Below are positions 6,573-29,456 of a stretch of DNA of 32,262 bases, piece after piece. Each line of letters starts with the position of its first letter. Positions within the stretch are counted from its first letter, which is position 1. Both the position numbers and the translations under genes were made by a program. The notes below the pieces were generated by a model, which searched no databases, was not told the DNA's origin, and saw nothing but the letters and a program-made list of their open reading frames with translations. Source of the DNA: a virus; the IMG/VR virus record IMGVR_UViG_3300035698_007186, positions 1-32,262 of that record. One strand, written 5' to 3'.

Positions 6573-7565
6573 ATGACTTGGAACACCAAAAATATAGCAG
6601 ATGATAAATTATCAATAGAAAGTATACTTAAAAAAACAACTGAATTTGACCTATACTCATTCTATCTTGGTGAAAATATACAATTAGGTCGAGCTATATC
6701 ATCTCCTTTTAGGGAAGACAATAATCCATCTTTTGTATTCTTTAAAGGAACAACAGATAATAAACTGATGTGGCATGATTTTGCTACAGGAGATTCTGGT
6801 GATATAATATTATTCGTTAGAAGTGTATTTCAACTAACTTATGGTAAAGCATTAGAAAAAATATCTAAAGATGTAATTGAAAATAAATTATCTTTTACTA
6901 CACAAGGAATATCTGTTGAAAAAGATTTAAAATCAGTTAAGACAATCATATCTATTAAACGGAAAAATTTTACATCTACTGATGATGAATATTGGGGTCA
7001 ATATGGCTTAGATCGAAATGATTTAAAACATTTTGAAGCATATCCAATATCTCATTTTTGGATAAACAATGAACCACAACCTTATACATATACAAAAGAA
7101 CAACCAATGTATGCATATAAGATGTATAATAAGTTTAAAATATATAGACCATTAAGTCCAAATAGAAAGAAAAAGTGGAGAACTAATACCAAAATCCACG
7201 ATATTCAAGGCTGGGCTCAATTACCTCACCAAGGAAATTTATTAATTATTACCAAAAGTTTAAAAGATGTAATGGTATTATACAAGTTAGGATATGATGC
7301 TATTGCTCCAGGATCTGAATCAGCCAATCTACCAGTAGATTTAATTAATCAATTAAAGGAAAGATACAAAGAAGTAATTATCCTATTTGATTATGATGAT
7401 GGTGGTATGAATGGAGCAAGCAAACTTAGTATAAAGCATAACATTAGAAAAGTGTTTATACCATATGAATATAAAGAAATATTTGATGCAAAAGATGTTA
7501 GTGATTTTTATAAAGAATTTGGTAAAACTAAGACAAAAAAGATGCTTAAACAAATAACAAAATGA
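6573..7565 (+). CDS. DnaG-type primase-like protein (degenerate CHC2 domain plus Toprim)
   Basis: A 330-residue protein likely to prime phage replication. The N-terminal ~95 residues match the CHC2 primase fold (SPFREDNNPSF, then WHDFATGDSGDIILFV), but every zinc-ligand cysteine and histidine of the usual CFGC pattern is absent. The Toprim domain lies at about residues 220-300: NLLIITKSLKDVMVLYKLGY, then IILFDYDDGG. The DxD pair is kept, but the usual catalytic glutamate of the first Toprim motif reads as lysine or threonine (ITKS). It starts two bases after the zinc-ribbon gene and overlaps the nuclease start by four bases. It could still be an active primase with unusual chemistry, or an accessory Toprim protein. 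Confidence 0.8.
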   Translation: MTWNTKNIADDKLSIESILKKTTEFDLYSFYLGENIQLGRAISSPFREDNNPSFVFFKGTTDNKLMWHDFATGDSGDIILFVRSVFQLTYGKALEKISKDVIENKLSFTTQGISVEKDLKSVKTIISIKRKNFTSTDDEYWGQYGLDRNDLKHFEAYPISHFWINNEPQPYTYTKEQPMYAYKMYNKFKIYRPLSPNRKKKWRTNTKIHDIQGWAQLPHQGNLLIITKSLKDVMVLYKLGYDAIAPGSESANLPVDLINQLKERYKEVIILFDYDDGGMNGASKLSIKHNIRKVFIPYEYKEIFDAKDVSDFYKEFGKTKTKKMLKQITK

Positions 7566-8425
7566 AAAGAAAACCTAAAACAGGTAATGTTAAAATAAGA
7601 AATGCTCAAAAATTAATCTATGATAACATAACTTTTCAAAGTAAACTAGAAGTATATACTTATAAAAAACTTAAAGAAGCTGAAATTCAGTTTGGATATG
7701 AAAATCATACTTTTCAATTATTAGATAAATTTAATTATGAAGGTAAAAGTATGGAATTATTCCGAAATAAAAACGAAAAAGTTTTTGATTGGCAAAGACC
7801 ATTAGTTAGAGGTATGACATATACCCCCGACTTTTGTAACCTTAAACGCAAATGGATTATAGAATGCAAAGGATTTGCCAACGATGTGTAAATATATAAT
7901 CATTTTTGTAACCTTTTGTTATAAATTTGAAAGGGAAGCACATCTAAAATCCGATGAACTGCTGGAAAGCTGTGAAGCCAATCAGCAGCCAAGCTCCTTG
8001 AATTCTGAAATTCAAGTAAAGGAGAAGGTTCAGAGACTAACTGTTGAGGAGTCAGATACCAATAATACAGACACGAGCGTCGGACAAACTAAAAATTGGA
8101 CAAAATATTATAAAGGATGGCACGAAATGCAAGAAATCTGGAATAATATTGACTAAAATAGTTTGATGATATAGTCCAAACTACAACAAACAAAGAAGTT
8201 GTAGAATTACAGGATAAAGAGCCTGTAAGATAATAAATTGTCCCTTTAAAGTGGAAACTATTTAAAAAGTACATGAATATTAACCATCCGGGATTTACAT
8301 TATATATGCCAAGAAATCAAAAACATATTAATATTGTAGTACAACATATTAAAGACAATGAACAGAGAAGAACAATTAATAAAAGTGCAAGAAGAAGCAT
8401 GGGAACTGTTTCGAAAGAAAAATAA
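7562..8425 (+). CDS. PD-(D/E)XK nuclease, interrupted by a group I intron (exons 7562-7889 and 8241-8425)
   Basis: A phage endonuclease of the PD-(D/E)XK fold, resembling the T7 endonuclease I type used on branched DNA. Exon 1 supplies E30 (SKLEVY), D90 (YTPDF) and the E101-C-K103-G motif, then would hit a stop at 7889. Removing 7890-8240 joins GFANDV to FPLKWKLFKKYM and restores one frame of 170 residues ending at 8425. The spliced phrase NDVFPLKWKLFKKY reads as a natural continuation of the ECKG core, and both splice sites are backed by RNA pairing. The gene overlaps the primase by four bases and exon 2 overlaps the next gene by 68 bases. Unspliced mRNA would give a truncated 109-residue protein that keeps the catalytic residues. 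Confidence 0.85.
7890..8240 (+). ncRNA. Group I intron (self-splicing), 351 nt, without a homing endonuclease gene
   Basis: The 5' exon end GATGTGT (7883-7889) pairs with the guide GCACATC (7938-7944), giving a 7-bp P1 with U-G at the splice site. The 3' exon TCCCTT (8241-8246) pairs with AAGGGA (7931-7936), a perfect P10. The intron ends in G at 8240. Core helices: P3 TCAGC 7982-7986 with GTTGA 8043-8047; P4 AGCC 7987-7990 with GGTT 8027-8030; P5 CTCCTT 7994-7999 with AAGGAG 8019-8024, with AA joints; P7 GACTA 8035-8039 with TAGTC 8172-8176, inside the hallmark GATATAGTCC; P9 CTACAAC 8181-8187 with GTTGTAG 8198-8204; and a further hairpin TTACAGG 8207-8213 with CCTGTAA 8222-8228. P8 is tentative (AGTCA 8050-8054 with TGACT 8150-8154). 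Confidence 0.93.
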
Positions 8426-10871: not shown

Positions 10872-11726
10872 ATGTCAGAACAAATTAAAGAAGGTAAAAC
10901 TGTTGTAAGTGTAGATTACTTACGTTTACTCGAAACTAAAAATGCTTCACAAAGTGAAACTATTGGAGCACATAAAGAAACTATTAGGAATCTTGCTCAT
11001 CAATTAGAAACAGATAAGAAAAAAGTTACTATTGTTGAAGAAGATAGAAAAGGTGATAATGCTCAAGGATATGTTTACTATGGTAAACCTGTACCTGGTG
11101 CAAAGGCAATAACAATAACTAAAGTTAATTTAGAGGATGCTGCTGAACTTATTGCTAATAAAACGAATGAGAAAACAGAAACTGAACTTAAAGAAACCAA
11201 ATCTGTCCTTAAAGATAAAGAGCGTTATATAGAGAATATCGATGAATCCATCAAGGATATTGAAGCTGCTAATATGCGTAAAAGTGAAAATATACAAGCC
11301 AGATATAGTGAAGAACTATTTCAAGCACGAAAGGAATATAAAGATCAGAACTCTAAGTATAAGCATTCTATAGAAGATTTGAAAGAAGAACTTAAGAAAG
11401 TTAAAAACGAAAAGACTGATGAACAATTAGAGAAAACCCGTAAGCAGGAAGTTGCAAAACTGAAAGCTAGGATTGAAACTCTCGAAAGTGAAATGAATCG
11501 TCTTATAAACTTAAGTTGGTTTAATCGCGTATGGGATCGTATTACAAAACGTAGTGCTAAGATTGAAGCTCAAAAGCAAATCCATACAGAAGAAAGAGCA
11601 GCTGATAATGTTCGCATTAATTCACCAGCTCAAGCTGTTGGTAAACCAGATAGTATGAGTCCTCTCGCAAACGGCTTCAATATACAAAGTAATGCTTATG
11701 CTACTGCTCTTGGTAGAAGCTGGTAG
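10872..11726 (+). CDS. Coiled-coil hypothetical protein
   Basis: A 284-residue protein. An N-terminal ~90 residues include a compact GYVYYGKPVPGAKAITITK segment, then residues about 100-215 form a long coiled coil (repeats rich in K, E, L), a tryptophan-containing LSWFNRVWDRITKR amphipathic segment near 220, and a flexible tail ending ALGRSW. The amphipathic helix could touch membrane or partner protein. No family recognised. It is followed by three successive RNA hairpins, the last a terminator. Role unknown. Confidence 0.72.
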   Translation: MSEQIKEGKTVVSVDYLRLLETKNASQSETIGAHKETIRNLAHQLETDKKKVTIVEEDRKGDNAQGYVYYGKPVPGAKAITITKVNLEDAAELIANKTNEKTETELKETKSVLKDKERYIENIDESIKDIEAANMRKSENIQARYSEELFQARKEYKDQNSKYKHSIEDLKEELKKVKNEKTDEQLEKTRKQEVAKLKARIETLESEMNRLINLSWFNRVWDRITKRSAKIEAQKQIHTEERAADNVRINSPAQAVGKPDSMSPLANGFNIQSNAYATALGRSW

Positions 11727-16952: not shown

Positions 16953-19900
16953 TTAACAAATTTCGAGGTTATCCTCAGTTCTATTTTGTATTCTTTCATC
17001 GATATCTAAAGTCAATTGAACAGGTGTTGTTTTAACTTTCCCATCTAATATATCATCTAATTGTTGTCTCCAACCTTTATTAGAAAGATTTATAACTGGA
17101 ATTCCTTTCAATGAAGATAATGCTATCGCTTGACCAGTACCACCAGTATTGCGAGCATCGTTTTTACCATAATATTTTCTTTGGTCTGCTCTAGTTTCTC
17201 CTTCTTGTGTCCAAACAATAGTAAAATCAACAGGAGTATTTAAATCAGCACCAAATACTTGATTTGTATTTCTAGCCATTAAATTTAAAGGATATTCAGT
17301 AAGTCTTTCGGGATTTGGATGTATTTCTTTAGCTATTGTTCTAGTTTGATTAGTTGCATCTTTAGTAGTAAAAACATTTTTATTTGTAGCACCTTTTCTA
17401 AATGCAGCATCAGCTCCAATTGCGTCTCCAGTATTCAAAATATAACCTTTACCTTCTAACTCATTTGCAAGTTCGGTCATTATATTTAAAACATCCGAAG
17501 GAGTATTTCTAGATCCAACACCAGCATATGTTTTAGTCGGAGTTAGCGATTTACTAGGTAATTTATCAAATTCAGGAGTTTTACTTATAGTTACTTCAGG
17601 TTTAGCAATCAACTCACTAAAAGTATCTATCTTCTCTGTAGATTTAGCAAGAACATCTGCTTTCTCATTACCTTCTATACCAATATGAGCAGGTACATAT
17701 TGAAATGTAACAGATCCTCCGTTAGATTTTATATTTTCAATCCGTTCTATACCAACAGCAACCATATCTTTAATCCAATCTCTGTTTTGCTTCCATTCCC
17801 CAGTTAACCATTTTTCTACACCATTATAGTCTTGAAGTATTTTAATGTGTTCGGAAGTATTATTAAATATTCTTAGAACTTCTAAAGTACCAAGTAATTC
17901 CATTGTTGGATTTGATACAGCTTTGTCAATATCTGGTATATCATATCTATCTGCAAACGATTGTTTTTCAGACACACCACTAATCTTATACTCTGTACCA
18001 TTGTACATCATTGATGCACCATAACCTATCTGACCAGTACCTTTAATATCACTACCATCGACATAAATCTCTAATGGTTTTTTACTATTAGATAAATTTT
18101 CTGCTTTTTCCACTCTTATTTCATTCTCTACTTTAGATTCAATAACCACTTTACCTTCAGCTGTTTCTTTTATAGCTTCTGTAGCCATCATATCGTCATA
18201 ATTATCAAATATCTCAACAGCTGTCAAATCAGATTGATCTATTATTCTTGTAGAAGGCCAATGTTTTTGAGCACTCTGTTCTGGATTAGTTAACCAATGA
18301 TCCAATTTATTGTTATCGAATATACTCTTTTTTAAACCATATTCCCTAACAAGTATACCCCTATTGTAATAGGACATCCTTTCACTTGCTACATATATAG
18401 GATAGTTGTCCTTAGTATCATACCCAACATACCGCATTAATTGATTACCACCATACATATCAGAAGATAATGATATATAAGGTTTATATATGTGTTGCTT
18501 ATGTTTGTTAATACCTATATATAATGTACGATCATGAACTTTAGATAATAATATTGTTGATTTATCTTTAGCCATTCGATTTTCAATCTCAGCATCGTCC
18601 CTTGGTCTCTTAACAAAAGTTTCATTAAACCAATTATTTTTTATTATTTCATCTTCAACTCCACGAAATAAATCATTGTTATTTGATTGAAGATTATTCA
18701 TAACATCTTTGATAAACTCATTATATGATATGATCTTCTCACCATCACGTATTTCTTTGAATGCTTGAGGTGGTATGAAATGATAGAATGAGAATATACC
18801 ACGTTTAAAACCAGAAGTATAATAAGCAAATACAAGTAAGTTTTTTGCAAAAGCTTGTACATCGGGACTTTTATGTTCAAATAAATCAGCCCATGCTAGT
18901 GTTAAATTATCTTTAGCAAACTTATCATTATCCCTATTTGAAGGAACTGTAATGAATGATTCAAATAAACTATCTTCAAAGTAAGTATAATTTAGATATT
19001 TAATCAATTCATTTTTAATTAACTCTGGATGTTGTTTTGCTAATCCTTGGGCTTGTTTAATTCTCCAAATTTGTTTAATGATAGAATTGTCACCAAATAA
19101 TAAGTTCTCCAATCGTGTGGATGTCATTTTAACACCACGTTCATCAGTAAAGAATCTTGAAGATATATATGAATATACTTCATTAGAAATACTATTAATA
19201 ATACCAGAATTTCTAGTATAAGTCAAACCTAACCTATCCCTAACTGCTTGATGCATATCACCAAATCCTTTGGTTGCTTCCATCATTTGCTGTGACATAG
19301 CTTGTAATGGCAACTCAACAGCATTCCTAAACATTTCACCTAAATAACTAGCCCCTTCTATATCAACTATTTTATGATTTATATTGTCATATGGTAATAT
19401 TTTGTTGAAATTAATGAACTTGTTGTCGGCATATACCTTCTCAACCATATTAACAAACCCTCTAAGTTCAGAAAAGTTCTTCCCATAACGTTTTGTATCA
19501 ACTTGTGATGCAGATGTAGCTTCAAATAGGTAATGTCCAAGGTTTTCTAAGTTATTAAACCTCTCGAGTATCATACTTTGAAAGACATAATACTCTAAAT
19601 CTTCACTTAAACTACCAAACTTCTCAATTTGTTCTAACAAAGTAGTCTCATCCCACAGATTTGGTTCAATTTTAGTTCTTATATCATTGATAACGGAGGC
19701 ATCTGTCTCTATTTCTGCTATCTTTTCCTTGTATGTAGCTTGTAATTCAGCATGAATGTCCGCTTCACCCCGTCCCAATCGTCCACGGTTACGTAAAAAC
19801 TTTTCAGCATACTCTTTTAGTATAGGTTGTGATAAGAAATCAAATGATATCTCACCAGCACCTGCCCTAAGTAGTAATGTTATAACGCTATACGTTGAAG

Positions 19901-22900
19901 CATTAACATTCAAATCAATAATATAAGTATCTTTCTCCAAGTCAACGTGAGCATCAACTCCAGCACTTAACCAATCAGTAATAACTACTTCATCTTTACC
20001 ACGCTTTTGAGATAAATCTATATTACCGTCAGAATCTCTATGAATTGGAGCTGATGTAGAACCTTTTAACTTAAGTTCAGCAATCTGTGATAACACATGG
20101 TGGGTATTTGCAAGTGCAAATGGACCAATACCATTCTTACCCATAGCATTCTGCATCTTAATATCAGTCTGAAAGGTAGGCGACGCAGATTCTAATGAAC
20201 CTAAACGTTTATCTTTACCTTCAAGTTTATTTATTGTCTTGGCTTTAGCTTTCAATATACCAGTAGCAATCCCTAATGGATTTGTACTTGGTATAAAATG
20301 TTCTTCGCTATCAAGTATAGCAAAATAAGCATCTATCAATTTATTTTCTACTGCTTTTCTTTCGTTCTGTTCATAGATAGATAATTTCAAAAACTCTTCT
20401 TTAGTAGGTATGATTCCTTTATCAATCATAACCTTACTTGCAGTCTCTATGAATTGATTTTTTTCTTCGCGATTAATTTCAATTAAATCGTTAATGAAGT
20501 CATACTTCTCATAATGAGCACTTATCTCTATGTTAATAGCCCTAGCCTCAACGAAACGTTCCGCAGCTACCGCAACCTTATGTCTCACTATTAAATCTTT
20601 GATACGGGAGCCCTCTTCACCTATGTAATCAGACCTTTCAACAATATTAGCATGATAGTCATATTTGAGCTGTGAGAGCTCTTTAGTCTCTTCCTCACTC
20701 AATGTATCAAGGTTATCATAAAAGGCGCTTAGAACGGCTCTCTGGTACCTTAAATCGGCTGTTTCGTCCCCTTCTAAGAATGGTACTTTAGATACCTTAT
20801 TTCCTTTGCTTTCATAGTTATGTCTGATAACAAAAAGTTTATCAATATCGAAGTCAGAACCAGTCAATGTAGTAAACTCATTCGGTAGTATGATAGTATC
20901 CCCAGAATTTTCTGGGAGTAATTCTACTACTTTTAAAGTAACAATAGAGTTTTGCCCCTGAGTAGGTATACGATACCCTATAATCCTAAGATCATTCTCT
21001 ACAAACTCTTTCTTCTGTTCCCATGTAAGCCTCTTATAATTAGGTATAATATGTTTAAACAAGTTAACAGATACCCTACATTCCATGGATTTAACTTCAC
21101 CATCTTCATATGTCTTAAACTTTAAGTCTTTATCCTCGCCTAATGTTTTTAAACCGAAGTTAGACATCTGTATTAATTGATTCCCAGGTAGGTTTATATC
21201 AACTGTTTCCTTACCAATAAACGATAATATACGACTATAAATCCAACGTCTGTCAGGTAATGCATCAAGTTCTAAGTACTTAACTAACCCAACAACTCCT
21301 TGTTCCATAACAAGACTCTCTATAACAGAGTCTGGCATACCAGCATTACGAGCATCATTTTTTAATATATCAAGTAATTTTTCCTCATCAATTTGAGATA
21401 AGTTATCTTCTGTCATACCAAGTTTAGCTAATACTCTTTTACGACCTTTTTTTGATAAGTCCTTTATACTTTCGTATATAACATTAGCAACATCACGCCC
21501 AGTAACTGGATCATCATCTAATATATAAACATTTTGATTTAAGTTTAAGTTACCCATAGCTATCTTCAGAAACTGAGTACCAGTTTTAGTCCGTTCTATG
21601 TCATGAGGTTCAGTAGTTAACTGCCTACGTAAGAATTGAAATGATTGAGTAAATACTGGAAGCTCTGAAAGATTCGCAACACTACCGTCTTTATTATAAA
21701 AGGAATGTTTCTCTCTACCGCCTATCTTAACAGCAGTATCAAACTTAACCATATCTAATGGATTGTCTTTATCTTCCATCCTATTCAATAACAGTTCAAG
21801 TTCTTTATCTTTAACCATACGTCTAAAGACAGTAGCTAATGACATCTTATCAAAGGTTGGTATTGCTTTACCACTATCAAATGTAAAACCAAAATAAACA
21901 AGTTTCAATGGTTTCATTACAACATTAAGAGCCCGTACTTCTTCAGAGGCAGTTGGTTCTTTATCTGATTGTAATATATCAAATGCTTCTTGCATATCAG
22001 AAGTCCATTCCCCCATACGATCAGCAATTTGCCTATACATATTGGGTGATATATATACTTGAGCATCGGTTGGGTCAACACTTGTGTAACCTTTCAAGTT
22101 ATTTTTAGCATCATCTCTAGCTTTCTTAGACATATTTTTACCTTCGTTCTCAGGCCAAGACTCGTAAAGTTCTTTTAAAAGTTCTGTGTGTTTAACTAAT
22201 AGATTTTTATAAAATGGACTATAAAGCGATTGTGTTGCAAATGTAGTCACACTATAAGTATCTGTATCATAATCTGGATGTTCAAGACGTTGCATATCTC
22301 CAGTGGATGTTAATACTGATAAGCGTTTAACTTTATCACTTATAACATTACCAACTTTATCTGATTCAAGATATGCTGGATCACCAAATGATATTTTTTC
22401 TGTTTCTATAACAGACATCATAGTATTGATTGTATATTCACCTATGATACTCCTAATAGCAATATCTTCTGAACCATAAAAATTTGTTAAATCTGTAACA
22501 ACATCTTTACTTATAAATCTATTTTTAAATGCACCTTTAGACATCGTTATAACTCCACTACTCAATGCGTTATTTATCTCAGTCTCAATACGTTCAGCTA
22601 ATATTTCCCTTATTTCTGGTTTAGAGTCCCTATCAAATTCAAATCCTTTCTTATTAAAAGAAATAAAATGCTGATAATTTAAACCATTGGCCTTGGTATA
22701 GTCATTGCCATATTTATAATGATATTCATTTACTAATTGATCAGTACTACCATTTTCTACAGCTTCGTCAATTTCCTTTTCTGTCTGTTCAATCCTATTG
22801 CGTTCATCTATAGCATAACCAACAAACATATCAATAACATCCTCAGGTATAGTCAAAGTATTGTCTTCCTCAACATCATACCTAAATTCAACAGTAGGCA

Positions 22901-25900
22901 TACCATCATATATATAGTATGTACTACGACCACCTAGTGTTGGGAAAGGTATTTTACCTTTAGCAACCATGTTAAGTTTCATTACGTAGTCCTCAAACCT
23001 GGTTATCTCTTGATATTTCCTACCAGTATCACCAGAACGTCTTTGTATTAGACCTGAAGAGGTACGTATTTGAAATGCTTTTCTTACTTCAGGATTCTCT
23101 CGTATCTGCTTAAGAAATACTGAATTAGCATTATATGTAACATTTGATAATTCTTGTAAATACACATCATCCTTCTTTATTGCATTAACAGATTCTGTTG
23201 CAAAACTAACAGGAGCATAGGTATAAAATAAGGCACTACCTGCGCCAATTACAGAGTTTGCAATCTGTTCAGGATGTATAGTTACATAATAGTCCGCAAG
23301 TTTCTTGATGATTTTCTCGTCTGAGAACATCGTTTCGATAGGTTTTTCACTATGTCCATAAAAAGGACTACTATCTACATCAAACAATGGTGATAAATCT
23401 ATAACAATTAGATCAGTTAATGCGTCATCGGGATTCTTTTCACTATCTTTGACTAATTCTTTAACTGTATCAGAATCTATATTGATTGCAAAGTTATTAA
23501 GAACTTCAACAACTGAATCAACATAGGCTTTATAATTAGTTAAAGTACCATCTTTAATATCCTTTATTACTTCCCCTTTAAGTTTCTCATATTTTGCAAA
23601 TACTTCATTGACTGCTTCTCCTACAAGTACAAGTTTACCATCTGATCCACGATAAACAGATTCACTTAAAGTAAATGTGTCATTCCATTTACGAGCAATC
23701 AAGCGTTGAGCTTTATTAATGTCAGCATCTGTAAATTCAAAAATAAGACCATCTTTGGTTCTAGAAAATAAAGTGTTCATGAACTCGTGTCTGTGTTTTT
23801 TTACAGCAGAGTAAAATTGAGAACGTATGTCTTCTGTACCAAGTTCTAATTTCTTAATAAGTTGTTGATAAGGATAATCACCTTTCTCCCTATTCTTAAG
23901 TCGTTCTATCATTTCTTCTATAGAAGCAGAGTCATGTAAACCATACATAATCCTATCCCAAGTAGTAGAAAAATCAACAAAATTGTACATATTTGTAAAC
24001 TCATCTTTCTGATCTGACTCATGTAAACTAGAGACGAGAAACTTAATACTCGCTAATACATTGTCTTTTGAATCACGTTCAAATGACTCTAATGTATATT
24101 GAGTAAAGTTACCATCAAGATCAAATTCCTCAATTTCAAATTGTTCAGTGTTACGCGAATGCTTCTTACGAATATTATATTCTAATAGTTTGTCTTCGAT
24201 AAGTTCCTTTACAACAGGAAAGTTATCTAAAAGTTCTGAATACAAATCACCATAACGCATGTAACGAGCTGTCTCATTATCACGTTTAGCTTGATCCCAA
24301 TTAGCAACTGTTTGTGCTTTAGGAGCAGTAGCATAATATGAATCCCTACGTTCACCTAATACTGTCTTTAAAAAGTCAAATCCTTGACCGATAGACTTAA
24401 CACTATTGAAATCTACAGTTTTAGTTTTTACACTATGAGTTAAAGATAAGTTTAATAAAGTATTTGTAAGACCTTTAATAACAGATCTTAGTTGATCACT
24501 TGTCTGTATCATCTGAAATGCTTGACCTTTAACTACCCTATTATAAGGATACTTAGATGCTTTAACACGATCGATATTTTCCTCACTTGCTTTAGAATAC
24601 CGAAATCTACCACGTTGAATAGATTTAAACAAGGTGTTAGTATCAAATGATGTTAAACGTCTCGGACCTATGAAGAAATTATAGATCAAATCCCATAACA
24701 TCTGAAAAAACTTCTTAATAGCATGTGGTTCTTTCTTGTTACCTTCTAACAAAACATAGTCCCTAAACTTCTCAGCTAATATTTCTTCAACTTGCCTATC
24801 AGTCTTATCAACTAAACCATGTTGTTTTCTTGCAGAATTATACAGTTCACTACGTTCGTCTTCATTCAAATAAAGTAAACTAACCCTATGGAATGATTCA
24901 TGATATAAACTACCTTTCTCAGCAGCACGATACAATAGAATAGAATCCCATCTGAGCTGACCAAACGAAGTTCTAGTTGAACCTTTGGCAGCTTGTATAA
25001 GTCGTTCTGTTATTTCGACTGGTACATTACCAAATCGTTTATTAAACCATTTAAGTTCTTCTTCTAATTTCATACGAGGATATGACCTGTTCATACCATA
25101 TTTATTAATACGGTTGATAGGAGCATCTTCTTCACCAATTTGACCTGCTTCTTTGAGGAAATCTTCCTCTGACATAGCAATATTTTTGGTTGGTGCTTCC
25201 TCTATTTTAGGTTCAGTAACAGTAGGAGCTTCTATGACAGGAATAGTCTCCTCAACTGGTTCATTCTCATTTAAAGAAGTTGAACTATAATCTATAAGTA
25301 TTTGACCTATATCACCTGCCGTTTGAGTAGCAAAGTTAAATAGTTTCTTTGATATGGTTAAGTTCCTAATAAACTGACCATCTATTTCTGATTTTAAAGT
25401 AACGCCTTGTTCTAAAGATCTAAATCGTTTCTTACCATCTTCTTGTACAATCTCAACCAATGGCAAGATTGCACCTTTACGTTTAACATATACTTGAGCA
25501 CCAACTGGTAAATTGCCAAATTCTTTAGCATTAGTTATCTTATCGACCTTAACTGGAACTGGTTCTTTAGATGGTATAGTCTTAGCTTTTTGTTTCTTGG
25601 TCTGAGGTTTCCTCACAACATCTTCAACAGAAGGAACGTCTACAAGAATAACAGGAGTATGAAATATAGAACGTTCATTAATTTCTGTTAAATCAGTAGT
25701 CAATGCTTTATTTTGCAATAACCATGTTGAATACAATGGATATTTACCTTTCTTATCTTTCTTAACTTCCCAACCACCTAACTTAAATGCTTTCTTAAAC
25801 GGTTTGTTTAATTCTGCATTAAGTAATTTAATCTTCTTATTAACAGCATAATTCTTATTTTCAACAGCCCAAGTAATAAAACGTTCCCTATTAGCTGCTT

Positions 25901-28900
25901 TATTCTCTAAGTCGTGTAAGTCTAATGTCTGTTCACCAAACTGTAATATATGTTCGTCTATAACATATAATTGTTTAGCCCTTAAATGTTCTTTACCTAT
26001 GTTTTTCTTAATCTCAATAGAAGTCTTCCGACCATTGATAGCCAGTATGTTGATTGCTTGACCAGCAGTTAATCCTGTAACAGCAGTATAATCTTTACCA
26101 AACGACGCCTTGTTACCACCACTACCATAAGTATGTTTCAACACAAAAGCATCAAAGAGTATACCTGCATGTTCTGTACTCAACTTCGATGGATTAAGTC
26201 TTACTTTTGCTTTCTGCCCATTAACAGTTCTTATTGTTTGTGCTAAAATTAAACCAGGTTTCCAATTACCAAGATAACGAGTGTTATCATTAATCCAAGC
26301 AGATCTTGTTGCATCAACTATACCAACACCAGGCATATTTGGATTTAAACCTAATGTAGTTAATACATTATTCTTTGCACCTTCTTCTATATTAGGATGT
26401 CCCCAACCTTTACCTTGAGTCTTAAATTCAACTTGTTGACCAGTAAGAATAGCTTCAAGTATGTGTAGTCTTGTTTCTCGAGTATGTTTCTGTTCTTTAA
26501 CTATATACCCAACTTCATCTTTTGTACCACTCGGTACACGAATATGTGGAAAACCAGATTCATGATAATATATACCACCTTGAAATGTTTGATCACCATC
26601 TTTTATTATAGCACTAATTGGTATTTTATCTACAAGATTATTAAACCTATTTGGTTTTACAAGTTCAAATAATTCTGCTACTTCTTCCTTAGTTAGATCT
26701 GTACGTTTTAATATCTGATTTAACCACGTTTTTAATTTCTTTATAGTTTCTTCATCTAATTGATCCTGAAACTCTTTCTTATTCAAACGCACTTCTTTAA
26801 GTAAAGAAGAAGTTATTTCATTGAAATCTATAGCAAATGTAACTGTAGCGTTATCCATTGGATTCTGAGGATCAGATGAATAAACATCTAGCCCCTCATT
26901 ACGTACTATAAACTCTTGTTTTCCTTCTATTTTTTCTGTATGAACAGTACTAAGTGAATTGTAACTATGAGTAACACCTAAATCGGCAGATTGTATTGAT
27001 GCTTTTTCTGTTTCTGTTAAATTATCCTCGTCTATTGTTTCTCCACCAACATCGGGTTCTGTGGGAACTGTAGTTTTTAAACGTTCGAGTTCCTCTGGTA
27101 TCAATTCTATTTCTTCACCAATGAGATCTCCATTGTCATCTACTTCTTGAACTGTAACAACACCCTTCTCAAAATCAACATTTATAACTTCAACTACCTT
27201 ATCTTTCTCTGTAGTTGGATCTTTAGTTTTATACTTTTCACCTACATTAATCTCTTGTTCCTCTAAACGTTCTTCTTCACGAGTCTCACGTTCTTTACGT
27301 TCTTCTTCTGCTTTAGCTACATCCTTTTTTGTTTTTTCAATAAGGGCTTCACTTTCAGTTTGTATCTTTTTAAAATCTTCGCGTTGTTGTTTCTCATTAA
27401 AAAGATACTTTAGACGTTCTTTTGAATCCTCTATAACAGCGTTAACTTGATTAATCTGTTTAATAAGTTTTTCAATCTGTTTAGCAGTCTGTGGTAAATT
27501 AGCTTCGCCACTTGTTTCTAATTCCGCAAGATCTGATTGTAATTGTTTTGATTTATCTTCAAAGAATAATTGACGTACAGATTCAGAATATTGTCCTAAT
27601 TTTAATAACTCTCTATATCTTAAAGCTTCTGATTTACTACCGATATGAATACCATTAGTAACAGTATTAATATTATTCCAAACTCTTTGTAATCTTTCTA
27701 AGTTTTTTTTATACTTTTCTTTTAATTCTCCAACCTCTTCTATTGTTTGAACTGATTCACCGAGTTTGTTTAAAATCTCTAGTTCTTGTTCAGCAAAAAC
27801 ATCTACTTCTTCTTTTGCAGCAGATAAACCATCTTCTTCAATTAAATATTGTTGTGCCCATTCTGAAAATCTTTGTTCACGAAGATATTCAAACATTACT
27901 TCATTATTAGCTTCAGATGCTTCGATTAATCCTAATACATTTGGAACTGATCTTAAAGCACTTATAAATTCACCAGCTATTTTTTCATAATCTAGAATAG
28001 GTAAACCTTGGTCGTCTAATTCTAATTCAGAACTAAACTCCCGAATTATATTTCCTTCTTTATCTTTTGCTCCTTCTACTGTTTTACGCTTAAATAAATG
28101 TTTAGTCCCATCGGTATACCTAGTCATAGGCATATCCAATAATTGAGAGACTCTCGCTATATCTGCTTTTTGGGCTTTAGCTGCTCTAATACCACCAACG
28201 CCACCTGGAATAGCACCAATTATGGCACCTAACATTATTGCTTTTTGACCTTCGTCTGTACTAAAATTCTTTACCCAATTTACAGCTAATTTAAATAATC
28301 TATCCCTATCTTCAACATCACCAATTGCTATGTCTCTTTGTAAATTTTGTATAGCAAGTTGTATATTTTCTTCGTATGGTCCTTCTGTTAATATTGATTT
28401 ACCTGCTTGTTTACCAAATGCAGCAAAAGCATCTTTCTTTCTAAATTTAGTAAAATCATCTAAAGTTCCTGCTATTTTAGCTGTTCGAGCTTTAGCTAAA
28501 CTCGATCTAAGTCCTCTAAATGTTTTAAAGAACATAGAATTAGTAATATAATTTGAAGGCATTAAAGCAAATGCATTAGATACAAATGTATTTAAAGCTG
28601 CTTTAGATGCTTTAGCATTTGCTTCTTCTGGCGTTAATTTTCCAGCTCTAACTTGATCCCATATTTGTTCTAAAACTATATCTTTAGCATCTTTTGCTTC
28701 AAATCCAGATTCAGCGATAGAATTATATAATGACATTGAAACTAAATCTATTTCTTCAACGGCATTTCCTAACATTTTACCACCAGATTTTGCCAATGCC
28801 GAACCTTCTCCTTTAATAGCTCCTCTTGTTGCTTTAGAAAAAGCTCTACCTAATTTACCATATACGCCAGATGCTTTAACAATAGATGATATTCCTTTAG

Positions 28901-29429
28901 CTCCAATCAAAGCAGATGTCATAAATGCCATACCATCTATAACATCATCCATCCAAAATCCCCAAGTAGTCATTTGTTGCAAAATATTCCCCTCTAAATA
29001 TTTCCTAGTATGTTTAATTGGCATTTTTTCTTTAAGTCCTTCTTCCAAATTAGCAAACATAGAAGACCAAGCGTTCTCAAATATAATATCCCCATCACCA
29101 GCCATGATTGCAGGTAATAAGGATGTAGTATATCCAAGCCCTTCTAAAAGTTTTGTACCAGTGGTTGTTATAAAACGACCAAGGCCATTTGCTAAACGAT
29201 CACCAGCTGATTGGCGTTGTGCTTGAAATTCAACAGGATCAACACCAAAAGGCATACCTTCTGTAAATCTATCAAATTGAACTCCTACATTTTGAGTACC
29301 ACCATATTCTGGCAATATCGGATCGAGAGCTTGTATGGGACGTAAAGGTATTTCTCTTTTAGAGAGTGGTTCAGTTAAGTTGTCCCTATTTACCGGTAGC
29401 ATCTGAACCGGAAGATTAGTATCTCCCAT
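16953..29429 (-). CDS. Giant virion RNA polymerase fusion protein (4158 aa)
   Basis: A 4158-residue multidomain protein (ATG at 29429; the frame extends to a TTG at 29435). Residues 1-430 contain hydrophobic helices resembling ejection proteins; 550-760 is coiled coil; about 735-790 and 1400-1430 look like small beta-barrels. A zincin motif HESFH is at 1510-1514. The polymerase core includes YRIPTQGQNS just before TGSDFDIDKLFV, with metal-binding D2859, D2861 and D2863, the signature loop of crAss-like virion RNA polymerases. RNase HI follows at about 3785-3930 with D3791, E3844, D3867, H3915 and D3925. A SLOG Rossmann domain (YAGVGSRNTP, TGDAIGADAAF) ends the protein at about 3965-4135. By analogy with phage phi14:2 gp66, the polymerase is carried in the virion and transcribes early genes after injection. 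Confidence 0.88.
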   Translation of the reverse strand: MGDTNLPVQMLPVNRDNLTEPLSKREIPLRPIQALDPILPEYGGTQNVGVQFDRFTEGMPFGVDPVEFQAQRQSAGDRLANGLGRFITTTGTKLLEGLGYTTSLLPAIMAGDGDIIFENAWSSMFANLEEGLKEKMPIKHTRKYLEGNILQQMTTWGFWMDDVIDGMAFMTSALIGAKGISSIVKASGVYGKLGRAFSKATRGAIKGEGSALAKSGGKMLGNAVEEIDLVSMSLYNSIAESGFEAKDAKDIVLEQIWDQVRAGKLTPEEANAKASKAALNTFVSNAFALMPSNYITNSMFFKTFRGLRSSLAKARTAKIAGTLDDFTKFRKKDAFAAFGKQAGKSILTEGPYEENIQLAIQNLQRDIAIGDVEDRDRLFKLAVNWVKNFSTDEGQKAIMLGAIIGAIPGGVGGIRAAKAQKADIARVSQLLDMPMTRYTDGTKHLFKRKTVEGAKDKEGNIIREFSSELELDDQGLPILDYEKIAGEFISALRSVPNVLGLIEASEANNEVMFEYLREQRFSEWAQQYLIEEDGLSAAKEEVDVFAEQELEILNKLGESVQTIEEVGELKEKYKKNLERLQRVWNNINTVTNGIHIGSKSEALRYRELLKLGQYSESVRQLFFEDKSKQLQSDLAELETSGEANLPQTAKQIEKLIKQINQVNAVIEDSKERLKYLFNEKQQREDFKKIQTESEALIEKTKKDVAKAEEERKERETREEERLEEQEINVGEKYKTKDPTTEKDKVVEVINVDFEKGVVTVQEVDDNGDLIGEEIELIPEELERLKTTVPTEPDVGGETIDEDNLTETEKASIQSADLGVTHSYNSLSTVHTEKIEGKQEFIVRNEGLDVYSSDPQNPMDNATVTFAIDFNEITSSLLKEVRLNKKEFQDQLDEETIKKLKTWLNQILKRTDLTKEEVAELFELVKPNRFNNLVDKIPISAIIKDGDQTFQGGIYYHESGFPHIRVPSGTKDEVGYIVKEQKHTRETRLHILEAILTGQQVEFKTQGKGWGHPNIEEGAKNNVLTTLGLNPNMPGVGIVDATRSAWINDNTRYLGNWKPGLILAQTIRTVNGQKAKVRLNPSKLSTEHAGILFDAFVLKHTYGSGGNKASFGKDYTAVTGLTAGQAINILAINGRKTSIEIKKNIGKEHLRAKQLYVIDEHILQFGEQTLDLHDLENKAANRERFITWAVENKNYAVNKKIKLLNAELNKPFKKAFKLGGWEVKKDKKGKYPLYSTWLLQNKALTTDLTEINERSIFHTPVILVDVPSVEDVVRKPQTKKQKAKTIPSKEPVPVKVDKITNAKEFGNLPVGAQVYVKRKGAILPLVEIVQEDGKKRFRSLEQGVTLKSEIDGQFIRNLTISKKLFNFATQTAGDIGQILIDYSSTSLNENEPVEETIPVIEAPTVTEPKIEEAPTKNIAMSEEDFLKEAGQIGEEDAPINRINKYGMNRSYPRMKLEEELKWFNKRFGNVPVEITERLIQAAKGSTRTSFGQLRWDSILLYRAAEKGSLYHESFHRVSLLYLNEDERSELYNSARKQHGLVDKTDRQVEEILAEKFRDYVLLEGNKKEPHAIKKFFQMLWDLIYNFFIGPRRLTSFDTNTLFKSIQRGRFRYSKASEENIDRVKASKYPYNRVVKGQAFQMIQTSDQLRSVIKGLTNTLLNLSLTHSVKTKTVDFNSVKSIGQGFDFLKTVLGERRDSYYATAPKAQTVANWDQAKRDNETARYMRYGDLYSELLDNFPVVKELIEDKLLEYNIRKKHSRNTEQFEIEEFDLDGNFTQYTLESFERDSKDNVLASIKFLVSSLHESDQKDEFTNMYNFVDFSTTWDRIMYGLHDSASIEEMIERLKNREKGDYPYQQLIKKLELGTEDIRSQFYSAVKKHRHEFMNTLFSRTKDGLIFEFTDADINKAQRLIARKWNDTFTLSESVYRGSDGKLVLVGEAVNEVFAKYEKLKGEVIKDIKDGTLTNYKAYVDSVVEVLNNFAINIDSDTVKELVKDSEKNPDDALTDLIVIDLSPLFDVDSSPFYGHSEKPIETMFSDEKIIKKLADYYVTIHPEQIANSVIGAGSALFYTYAPVSFATESVNAIKKDDVYLQELSNVTYNANSVFLKQIRENPEVRKAFQIRTSSGLIQRRSGDTGRKYQEITRFEDYVMKLNMVAKGKIPFPTLGGRSTYYIYDGMPTVEFRYDVEEDNTLTIPEDVIDMFVGYAIDERNRIEQTEKEIDEAVENGSTDQLVNEYHYKYGNDYTKANGLNYQHFISFNKKGFEFDRDSKPEIREILAERIETEINNALSSGVITMSKGAFKNRFISKDVVTDLTNFYGSEDIAIRSIIGEYTINTMMSVIETEKISFGDPAYLESDKVGNVISDKVKRLSVLTSTGDMQRLEHPDYDTDTYSVTTFATQSLYSPFYKNLLVKHTELLKELYESWPENEGKNMSKKARDDAKNNLKGYTSVDPTDAQVYISPNMYRQIADRMGEWTSDMQEAFDILQSDKEPTASEEVRALNVVMKPLKLVYFGFTFDSGKAIPTFDKMSLATVFRRMVKDKELELLLNRMEDKDNPLDMVKFDTAVKIGGREKHSFYNKDGSVANLSELPVFTQSFQFLRRQLTTEPHDIERTKTGTQFLKIAMGNLNLNQNVYILDDDPVTGRDVANVIYESIKDLSKKGRKRVLAKLGMTEDNLSQIDEEKLLDILKNDARNAGMPDSVIESLVMEQGVVGLVKYLELDALPDRRWIYSRILSFIGKETVDINLPGNQLIQMSNFGLKTLGEDKDLKFKTYEDGEVKSMECRVSVNLFKHIIPNYKRLTWEQKKEFVENDLRIIGYRIPTQGQNSIVTLKVVELLPENSGDTIILPNEFTTLTGSDFDIDKLFVIRHNYESKGNKVSKVPFLEGDETADLRYQRAVLSAFYDNLDTLSEEETKELSQLKYDYHANIVERSDYIGEEGSRIKDLIVRHKVAVAAERFVEARAINIEISAHYEKYDFINDLIEINREEKNQFIETASKVMIDKGIIPTKEEFLKLSIYEQNERKAVENKLIDAYFAILDSEEHFIPSTNPLGIATGILKAKAKTINKLEGKDKRLGSLESASPTFQTDIKMQNAMGKNGIGPFALANTHHVLSQIAELKLKGSTSAPIHRDSDGNIDLSQKRGKDEVVITDWLSAGVDAHVDLEKDTYIIDLNVNASTYSVITLLLRAGAGEISFDFLSQPILKEYAEKFLRNRGRLGRGEADIHAELQATYKEKIAEIETDASVINDIRTKIEPNLWDETTLLEQIEKFGSLSEDLEYYVFQSMILERFNNLENLGHYLFEATSASQVDTKRYGKNFSELRGFVNMVEKVYADNKFINFNKILPYDNINHKIVDIEGASYLGEMFRNAVELPLQAMSQQMMEATKGFGDMHQAVRDRLGLTYTRNSGIINSISNEVYSYISSRFFTDERGVKMTSTRLENLLFGDNSIIKQIWRIKQAQGLAKQHPELIKNELIKYLNYTYFEDSLFESFITVPSNRDNDKFAKDNLTLAWADLFEHKSPDVQAFAKNLLVFAYYTSGFKRGIFSFYHFIPPQAFKEIRDGEKIISYNEFIKDVMNNLQSNNNDLFRGVEDEIIKNNWFNETFVKRPRDDAEIENRMAKDKSTILLSKVHDRTLYIGINKHKQHIYKPYISLSSDMYGGNQLMRYVGYDTKDNYPIYVASERMSYYNRGILVREYGLKKSIFDNNKLDHWLTNPEQSAQKHWPSTRIIDQSDLTAVEIFDNYDDMMATEAIKETAEGKVVIESKVENEIRVEKAENLSNSKKPLEIYVDGSDIKGTGQIGYGASMMYNGTEYKISGVSEKQSFADRYDIPDIDKAVSNPTMELLGTLEVLRIFNNTSEHIKILQDYNGVEKWLTGEWKQNRDWIKDMVAVGIERIENIKSNGGSVTFQYVPAHIGIEGNEKADVLAKSTEKIDTFSELIAKPEVTISKTPEFDKLPSKSLTPTKTYAGVGSRNTPSDVLNIMTELANELEGKGYILNTGDAIGADAAFRKGATNKNVFTTKDATNQTRTIAKEIHPNPERLTEYPLNLMARNTNQVFGADLNTPVDFTIVWTQEGETRADQRKYYGKNDARNTGGTGQAIALSSLKGIPVINLSNKGWRQQLDDILDGKVKTTPVQLTLDIDERIQNRTEDNLEIC

Positions 29430-29456
29430 AATCAATATTTTGTTTAAGTATTTCTA

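Follow-up and report, generated by a model that had tools for sequence, protein, structure and literature searches.

The virus record IMGVR_UViG_3300035698_007186 (32,262 bases, analysed whole and referred to here as the window) contains, on its forward strand, a nuclease gene that is listed as two overlapping open reading frames (ORFs), 7562-7891 (109 residues) and 7875-8156 (93 residues). Is this gene truncated, or is it divided by an intron whose removal restores it? A first-pass annotation of the same DNA proposed a group I intron at 7890-8240 inside a PD-(D/E)XK nuclease gene, and it predicted that a gene caller would report a truncated nuclease and a frame within the intron, as the two listed ORFs do. 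The analyses described here give the same answer with high confidence: 7890-8240 is almost certainly a group I intron in a DUF1064 / Holliday-junction-resolvase-like gene of a probably crAss-like phage, and most likely an endonuclease-free member of the homing-intron kind.

Intron boundaries and the spliced protein

At gathering thresholds, the sole Rfam match in the window is to the group I intron model RF00028, at 7900-8185 on the forward strand (76.3 bits, E 6.6e-18, against a cut-off of 50 bits). The match spans model positions 1-253, which is the full model, and it is the one RF00028 match in the record. The covariance-model check named by the first-pass annotation was thus run, and its outcome was favourable. 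Removal of 7890-8240 (351 nucleotides, nt, with a terminal G at 8240) joins exon 1 (7562-7889, the PD...ECKG half of the gene) to exon 2 (8241-8425, which starts with FPLKWKLFKKYM and runs to the stop codon) in an open frame of 170 residues. Exon 1 was delimited from the ORF list, profiles and homologue alignment, and exon 2 from the spliced frame and the same alignment. In a boundary scan, exon 1 was allowed to end at 7860-7899 with T as its last base, and the intron at 8180-8299 with G as its last base. Four pairs of boundaries retained the exon 2 motif FPLKWKLFKKYM, and only 7889|8241 gave the open 170-residue frame with the conserved residues intact; two of the other three lose residues after or within ECKG, and one retains a stop. 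The proposed boundaries and frame were therefore recovered as the only suitable pair. The insertion lies in codon 110, nine codons past the E of ECKG and five whole codons past the end of the motif; the first-pass annotation had placed it nine codons after the motif. At the 5' junction, the final base of exon 1 and the two bases that open the intron make an in-frame UAA (7889-7891), so that the unspliced frame stops after 109 residues.

The spliced 170-residue protein matches both PF06356 (DUF1064; E 3.6e-9) and phrog_190, a Holliday junction resolvase family (E 1.3e-12), in line with the proposed PD-(D/E)XK nuclease. The profile match, together with invariant residues encoded by either exon, places it as a predicted member of the DUF1064 / Holliday-junction-resolvase-like family. 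For comparison, 33 viral-contig relatives and the best 80 of at least 587 confirmed loci were combined into a set of 113 loci on 110 contigs, with three contigs common to both lists. The junction is uninterrupted in all 113 aligned loci, and none has an intron-sized insert there; homologues with residues encoded by 7890-8240, which would have contradicted the first-pass annotation, were thus absent from this set. Uninterrupted genes had an advantage in the ranking behind the 80 best loci, and these counts therefore do not show how often the gene carries an intron. The junction letters of the spliced window, FANDVFPLKWKLF, recur in 12 of the 113 loci, and a stricter junction motif fits 48, the alignment being used for the count of uninterrupted genes. 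Two extra residues stand just before the junction in three loci, and in eight of the alignments there is a stop, always downstream of the junction and close to the C terminus of the protein. The closest relative among the matches listed (67% identity) has the uninterrupted site NDAFPIKWK. Across 14 aligned sequences the invariant residues include E101, K103, F110, P111, W114, K115, and F117. The last five are encoded wholly or mostly by exon 2, and the 109-residue unspliced product therefore lacks them.

Pairing of the intron RNA

The window intron has the features by which group I introns are recognised: the RF00028 core, helices P3, P4, P6, P7, and P8, a P1 whose U.G marks the 5' splice site, a terminal G, and a P10. 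P1 pairs the end of exon 1 (GATGTGT, 7883-7889) with the internal guide strand GCACATC (7938-7944), and all seven of the pairs previously described are formed, the U.G included. A P10 with the 3' exon was also as described, except that it has seven Watson-Crick pairs rather than six, between AAAGGGA (7930-7936) and TCCCTTT (8241-8247). When the mononucleotides of 7890-7960 were shuffled 200,000 times, a seven-pair P1 alone was common (17,551 shuffles), whereas a seven-pair P1 with an adjoining six-pair P10 arose in only five. Within the core, P3 pairs 7950-7956 with 8078-8084. P4 (seven pairs, 7959-7965/7982-7988) encloses P5 (three pairs, 7969-7971/7976-7978), the two occupying 7959-7988, and P6, P6a, and P6b follow at 7989-8028. 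The guanosine-binding helix P7 joins GACTA (8035-8039) to TAGTC (8172-8176), the latter inside GATATAGTCC. P8 (8086-8091/8159-8164) spans 8086-8164 and carries a 67-nt loop, and P9.1 (8181-8187/8198-8204) and P9.2 (8207-8213/8222-8228) lie at 8181-8228. Every one of these helices is fully paired in the window, including the P3, P4, P5, and P7 of the first-pass annotation.

In IA introns, P7.1 and P7.2 are located between the P7 5' strand and the P3 3' strand. The corresponding 38-nt stretch of the window (8040-8077) would be the place of IA-type P7.1/P7.2, which suggests this subgroup. The accessible part of PMC11835236 assigns over half of the group I introns of viruses to IA2.

If the intron were a degenerate and inactive one, then the nuclease gene of the window phage would be broken. 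No endonuclease domain is left in the intron and P5 has just three pairs, both of which are consistent with decay. However, all of the checked helices are fully paired, P1 and P10 included, and both exons are open and conserved, which is unexpected under decay; this explanation is highly improbable. An active intron is predicted to fold upon transcription, so that P1, with its U.G, would set the end of exon 1 in the active site. A guanosine held at P7 would then cut at the exon 1 end, and P10 would align exon 2 so that the exons are joined, the intron is released, and the 170-residue nuclease can be made. In unspliced messages, the UAA at the junction would probably halt ribosomes of that frame ahead of the ribozyme sequence, and the protein would lack its conserved C-terminal part.

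An intron at the same site in a second phage record

A DNA pattern made up of the P7 3' strand followed by the start of resolvase exon 2 identified a second interrupted copy of the gene in the 68,097-base record IMGVR_UViG_3300028030_000012 (hereafter L141). Exon 1 ends there in ...ECKGMMNDA, exon 2 resumes after 996 nt, and the joined sequence is ECKGMMNDAFPLRWKIFKNYL; a protein search of the record gives the gene in two pieces, with TAA in the first. The 996-nt insert is a group I intron (RF00028, 70.7 bits by cmscan). Like the window intron it interrupts the resolvase gene at the same codon and in the same phase (phase 1), has a P1 with U.G (six pairs), and forms an immediate UAA at the exon-intron junction. 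Unlike the window intron, with its 67-nt P8 loop, it has a short P8 loop, and it contains an ORF of 237 residues with a GIY-YIG domain (PF01541, E 6e-06). This ORF follows the 5' site and precedes the guide sequence, into which its final codons run, and it ends before the ribozyme core. Given this same-site intron with its GIY-YIG ORF, the window intron most probably belongs to the same sort of homing introns but has no endonuclease, and it would have arrived by homing.

Four DNA-pattern scans of viral contigs for further same-site introns yielded 20, 7, 2, and 16 stretches (the last including nine new loci), and one pattern applied to genome contigs yielded one stretch. The patterns were limited to chosen exon letters and spacings, and other same-site introns may exist. 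When all 39 pattern loci were checked by tblastn with resolvase homologues, the gene was split in L141 only. Three candidates (L145, L149, and L150) were rejected since the resolvase gene is uninterrupted in each, and the remaining loci had no convincing resolvase match by tblastn. Rfam at gathering thresholds gave no match in 14 of the 20 stretches of the first viral-contig scan, L141 being scanned separately.

The L141 intron also bears on whether the 351 nt might link unrelated pieces, either as two separate genes or through an assembly artefact. The window is a virus record of a metagenomic collection, without read support that can be inspected, which leaves room for such an error. Nevertheless, the insert matches the full covariance model, its P1 and P10 are matched to both flanks, and a different record is interrupted at the same codon position, so that an artefact is barely conceivable.

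Related introns in other genes

Seven introns in four other phage records, located in other genes or in unassigned places, have cores that are 72, 72, 71, 70, 68, 62, and 53% identical to that of the window. The dUTPase introns of the uncultured phages cr50_1 and cr1_1 have cores 68-70% identical to the window's, and the final 73 nt of the window intron are 81% identical to cr50_1; neither dUTPase intron gave an Rfam match at E 0.01. They differ from the window intron in their gene and in carrying an HNH-annotated ORF (in cr50_1, PF13392 at 5.7e-08) whose end overlaps the ribozyme core.

A scan with a P9-sequence pattern found four stretches (L120, L121, L122, and L123). L120 and L121 have introns in exonuclease genes, and L122 has a polymerase-like ORF nearby. 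The L120 intron, which is in a PD-(D/E)XK-type exonuclease gene, contains a tRNA-like sequence (11210-11285; CAU anticodon by eye) at the position equivalent to window 8040-8077, after the P7 5' strand and before the P3 3' strand. This sequence scores 20.9 bits against the full-length Rfam tRNA model (cut-off 29), and ARAGORN found no gene in it. At the same place, the matching intron of L121 has a different insert (3706-3794, reverse strand) with a T-arm-like hairpin by eye, in which neither an Rfam tRNA match nor an ARAGORN gene was found. L121 (IMGVR_UViG_3300026549_000087) is a 59-kb viral record with five RF00028 matches, four of them above the cut-off.

The ribozyme match, boundaries, pairing, protein homology, and same-site intron were established by computation, and splicing activity is predicted. 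Several observations weigh against an active intron of homing origin in the window. Pfam, applied to 22 of the 40 ORFs listed for the window, revealed no homing endonuclease. A record-wide RF00028 search of L141 misses the 70.7-bit intron and lists another place below the cut-off. Across nine intron cores, P4 (63/63 cells), P6 (18/18), and P7 (45/45) are always paired and have no two-sided changes, while pairing is poor in P5 (16/27), P6a (26/42), and P6b (7/13), perhaps through misalignment. P3 and P9.2 lie outside the compared columns, and the P8 letters are those of the window alone. Finally, the L141 core is 64% identical to that of the window over 178 ungapped columns, and five of the seven other cores resemble the window's more closely (68-72%), a pattern compatible with one arrival at this site as well as with two. 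Two-sided changes do occur in the same nine cores at two of three pairs in P5, five of six in P6a, one of five in P6b, and four of seven in P9.1, where 47 of 56 cells are paired.

Because several introns from other genes have cores nearer to the window's than the same-site L141 intron does, the resolvase codon might instead be a site to which homing introns have come repeatedly in crAss-like phages and their relatives, with different introns settling there on separate occasions. A site-specific endonuclease supplied by one intron may then have opened the site to an unrelated intron that has none. Such repeated colonisation is unlikely.

The open frame within the intron

An open frame with an ATG at 7884 runs across the intron core (7884-8156, forward strand). 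It has no known domain and is possibly a relic, and the window intron would then have lost its endonuclease. The longest open run in the intron is 88 codons, which was equalled in 21 of 5,000 shuffles. No Pfam domain was found in the intron ORF, that of a homing endonuclease included; tblastn of the frame against phages yielded nothing even at E 0.1, and none of ten candidate stretches in viral contigs was confirmed as a relative. A family of unknown function, phrog_17862, weakly matches the frame (window 7875-8153, E 0.0022), and this family may consist of translated intron cores.

It is very unlikely that the frame encodes a working small protein, for instance a maturase or shrunken endonuclease, instead of being a by-product of the RNA. 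The scarcity of such a long open run in the shuffles speaks for a protein, as does the HNH-annotated ORF that crosses the same core in the cr50_1 and cr1_1 dUTPase introns, by eye in the same frame. On the other hand, the searches above found neither domain nor relatives, what the frame has in common with the HNH tails is core RNA sequence, and the L141 ORF ends before the core. Endonuclease ORFs that overlap the intron core are known (PMC3984707, in the part available). The first-pass annotation had called the frame spurious, which is probable.

The host phage

The window phage looks crAss-like, an affiliation that the first-pass annotation did not recognise. Its primase and two giant proteins of the opposite strand match mostly crAss-like and Bacteroides phage records. 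The resolvase matches crAss-like and Bacteroides phages and also Flavobacterium and Cellulophaga phages; the latter two are also matched by the primase, and one such phage is filed outside Crassvirales. Gene order is similar to that of cr118_1 and cr115_1, both filed under Crassvirales. The homologous replication and giant transcription proteins, in a similar order, are as expected of Crassvirales and suggest this placement, on the basis of genes other than capsid and terminase. A 4160-residue protein contains DFDID, an instance of the DxDxD type that the available portion of PMC7886860 names for the RNA polymerase. In the ORF of this protein (window 16953-29435), residues 3787-3932 also match RNase H (E 1.3e-10). 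A 737-residue protein of the phage had no match.

Comparison with known phage introns

The window intron is genuine but unremarkable and belongs to an already known kind of mobile element. Its 351 nt fit the non-coding part of Bastillevirinae introns, given as 350 +/- 108 bases in the accessible text of PMC11878797. A literature search on DUF1064 with an intron found nothing. With the window, one more conserved gene joins those that introns interrupt in crAss-like phages, and the pair of introns sharing a site offers a test case, if a small one, for how introns home and lose their endonucleases. Endonuclease-free introns can make a conserved gene resemble a truncated ORF, and searches for endonuclease domains would tend to miss them, the window intron included. 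Group I introns in conserved genes of crAss-like phages are known from Yutin et al. 2021 (PMC7886860), where the available portion does not name the resolvase-like gene as intron-bearing. In comparison with those introns, the window intron is of the same element class and likewise lies in a conserved gene of the same kind of phage, but it differs in splitting a resolvase-like PD-(D/E)XK gene and in having no endonuclease.
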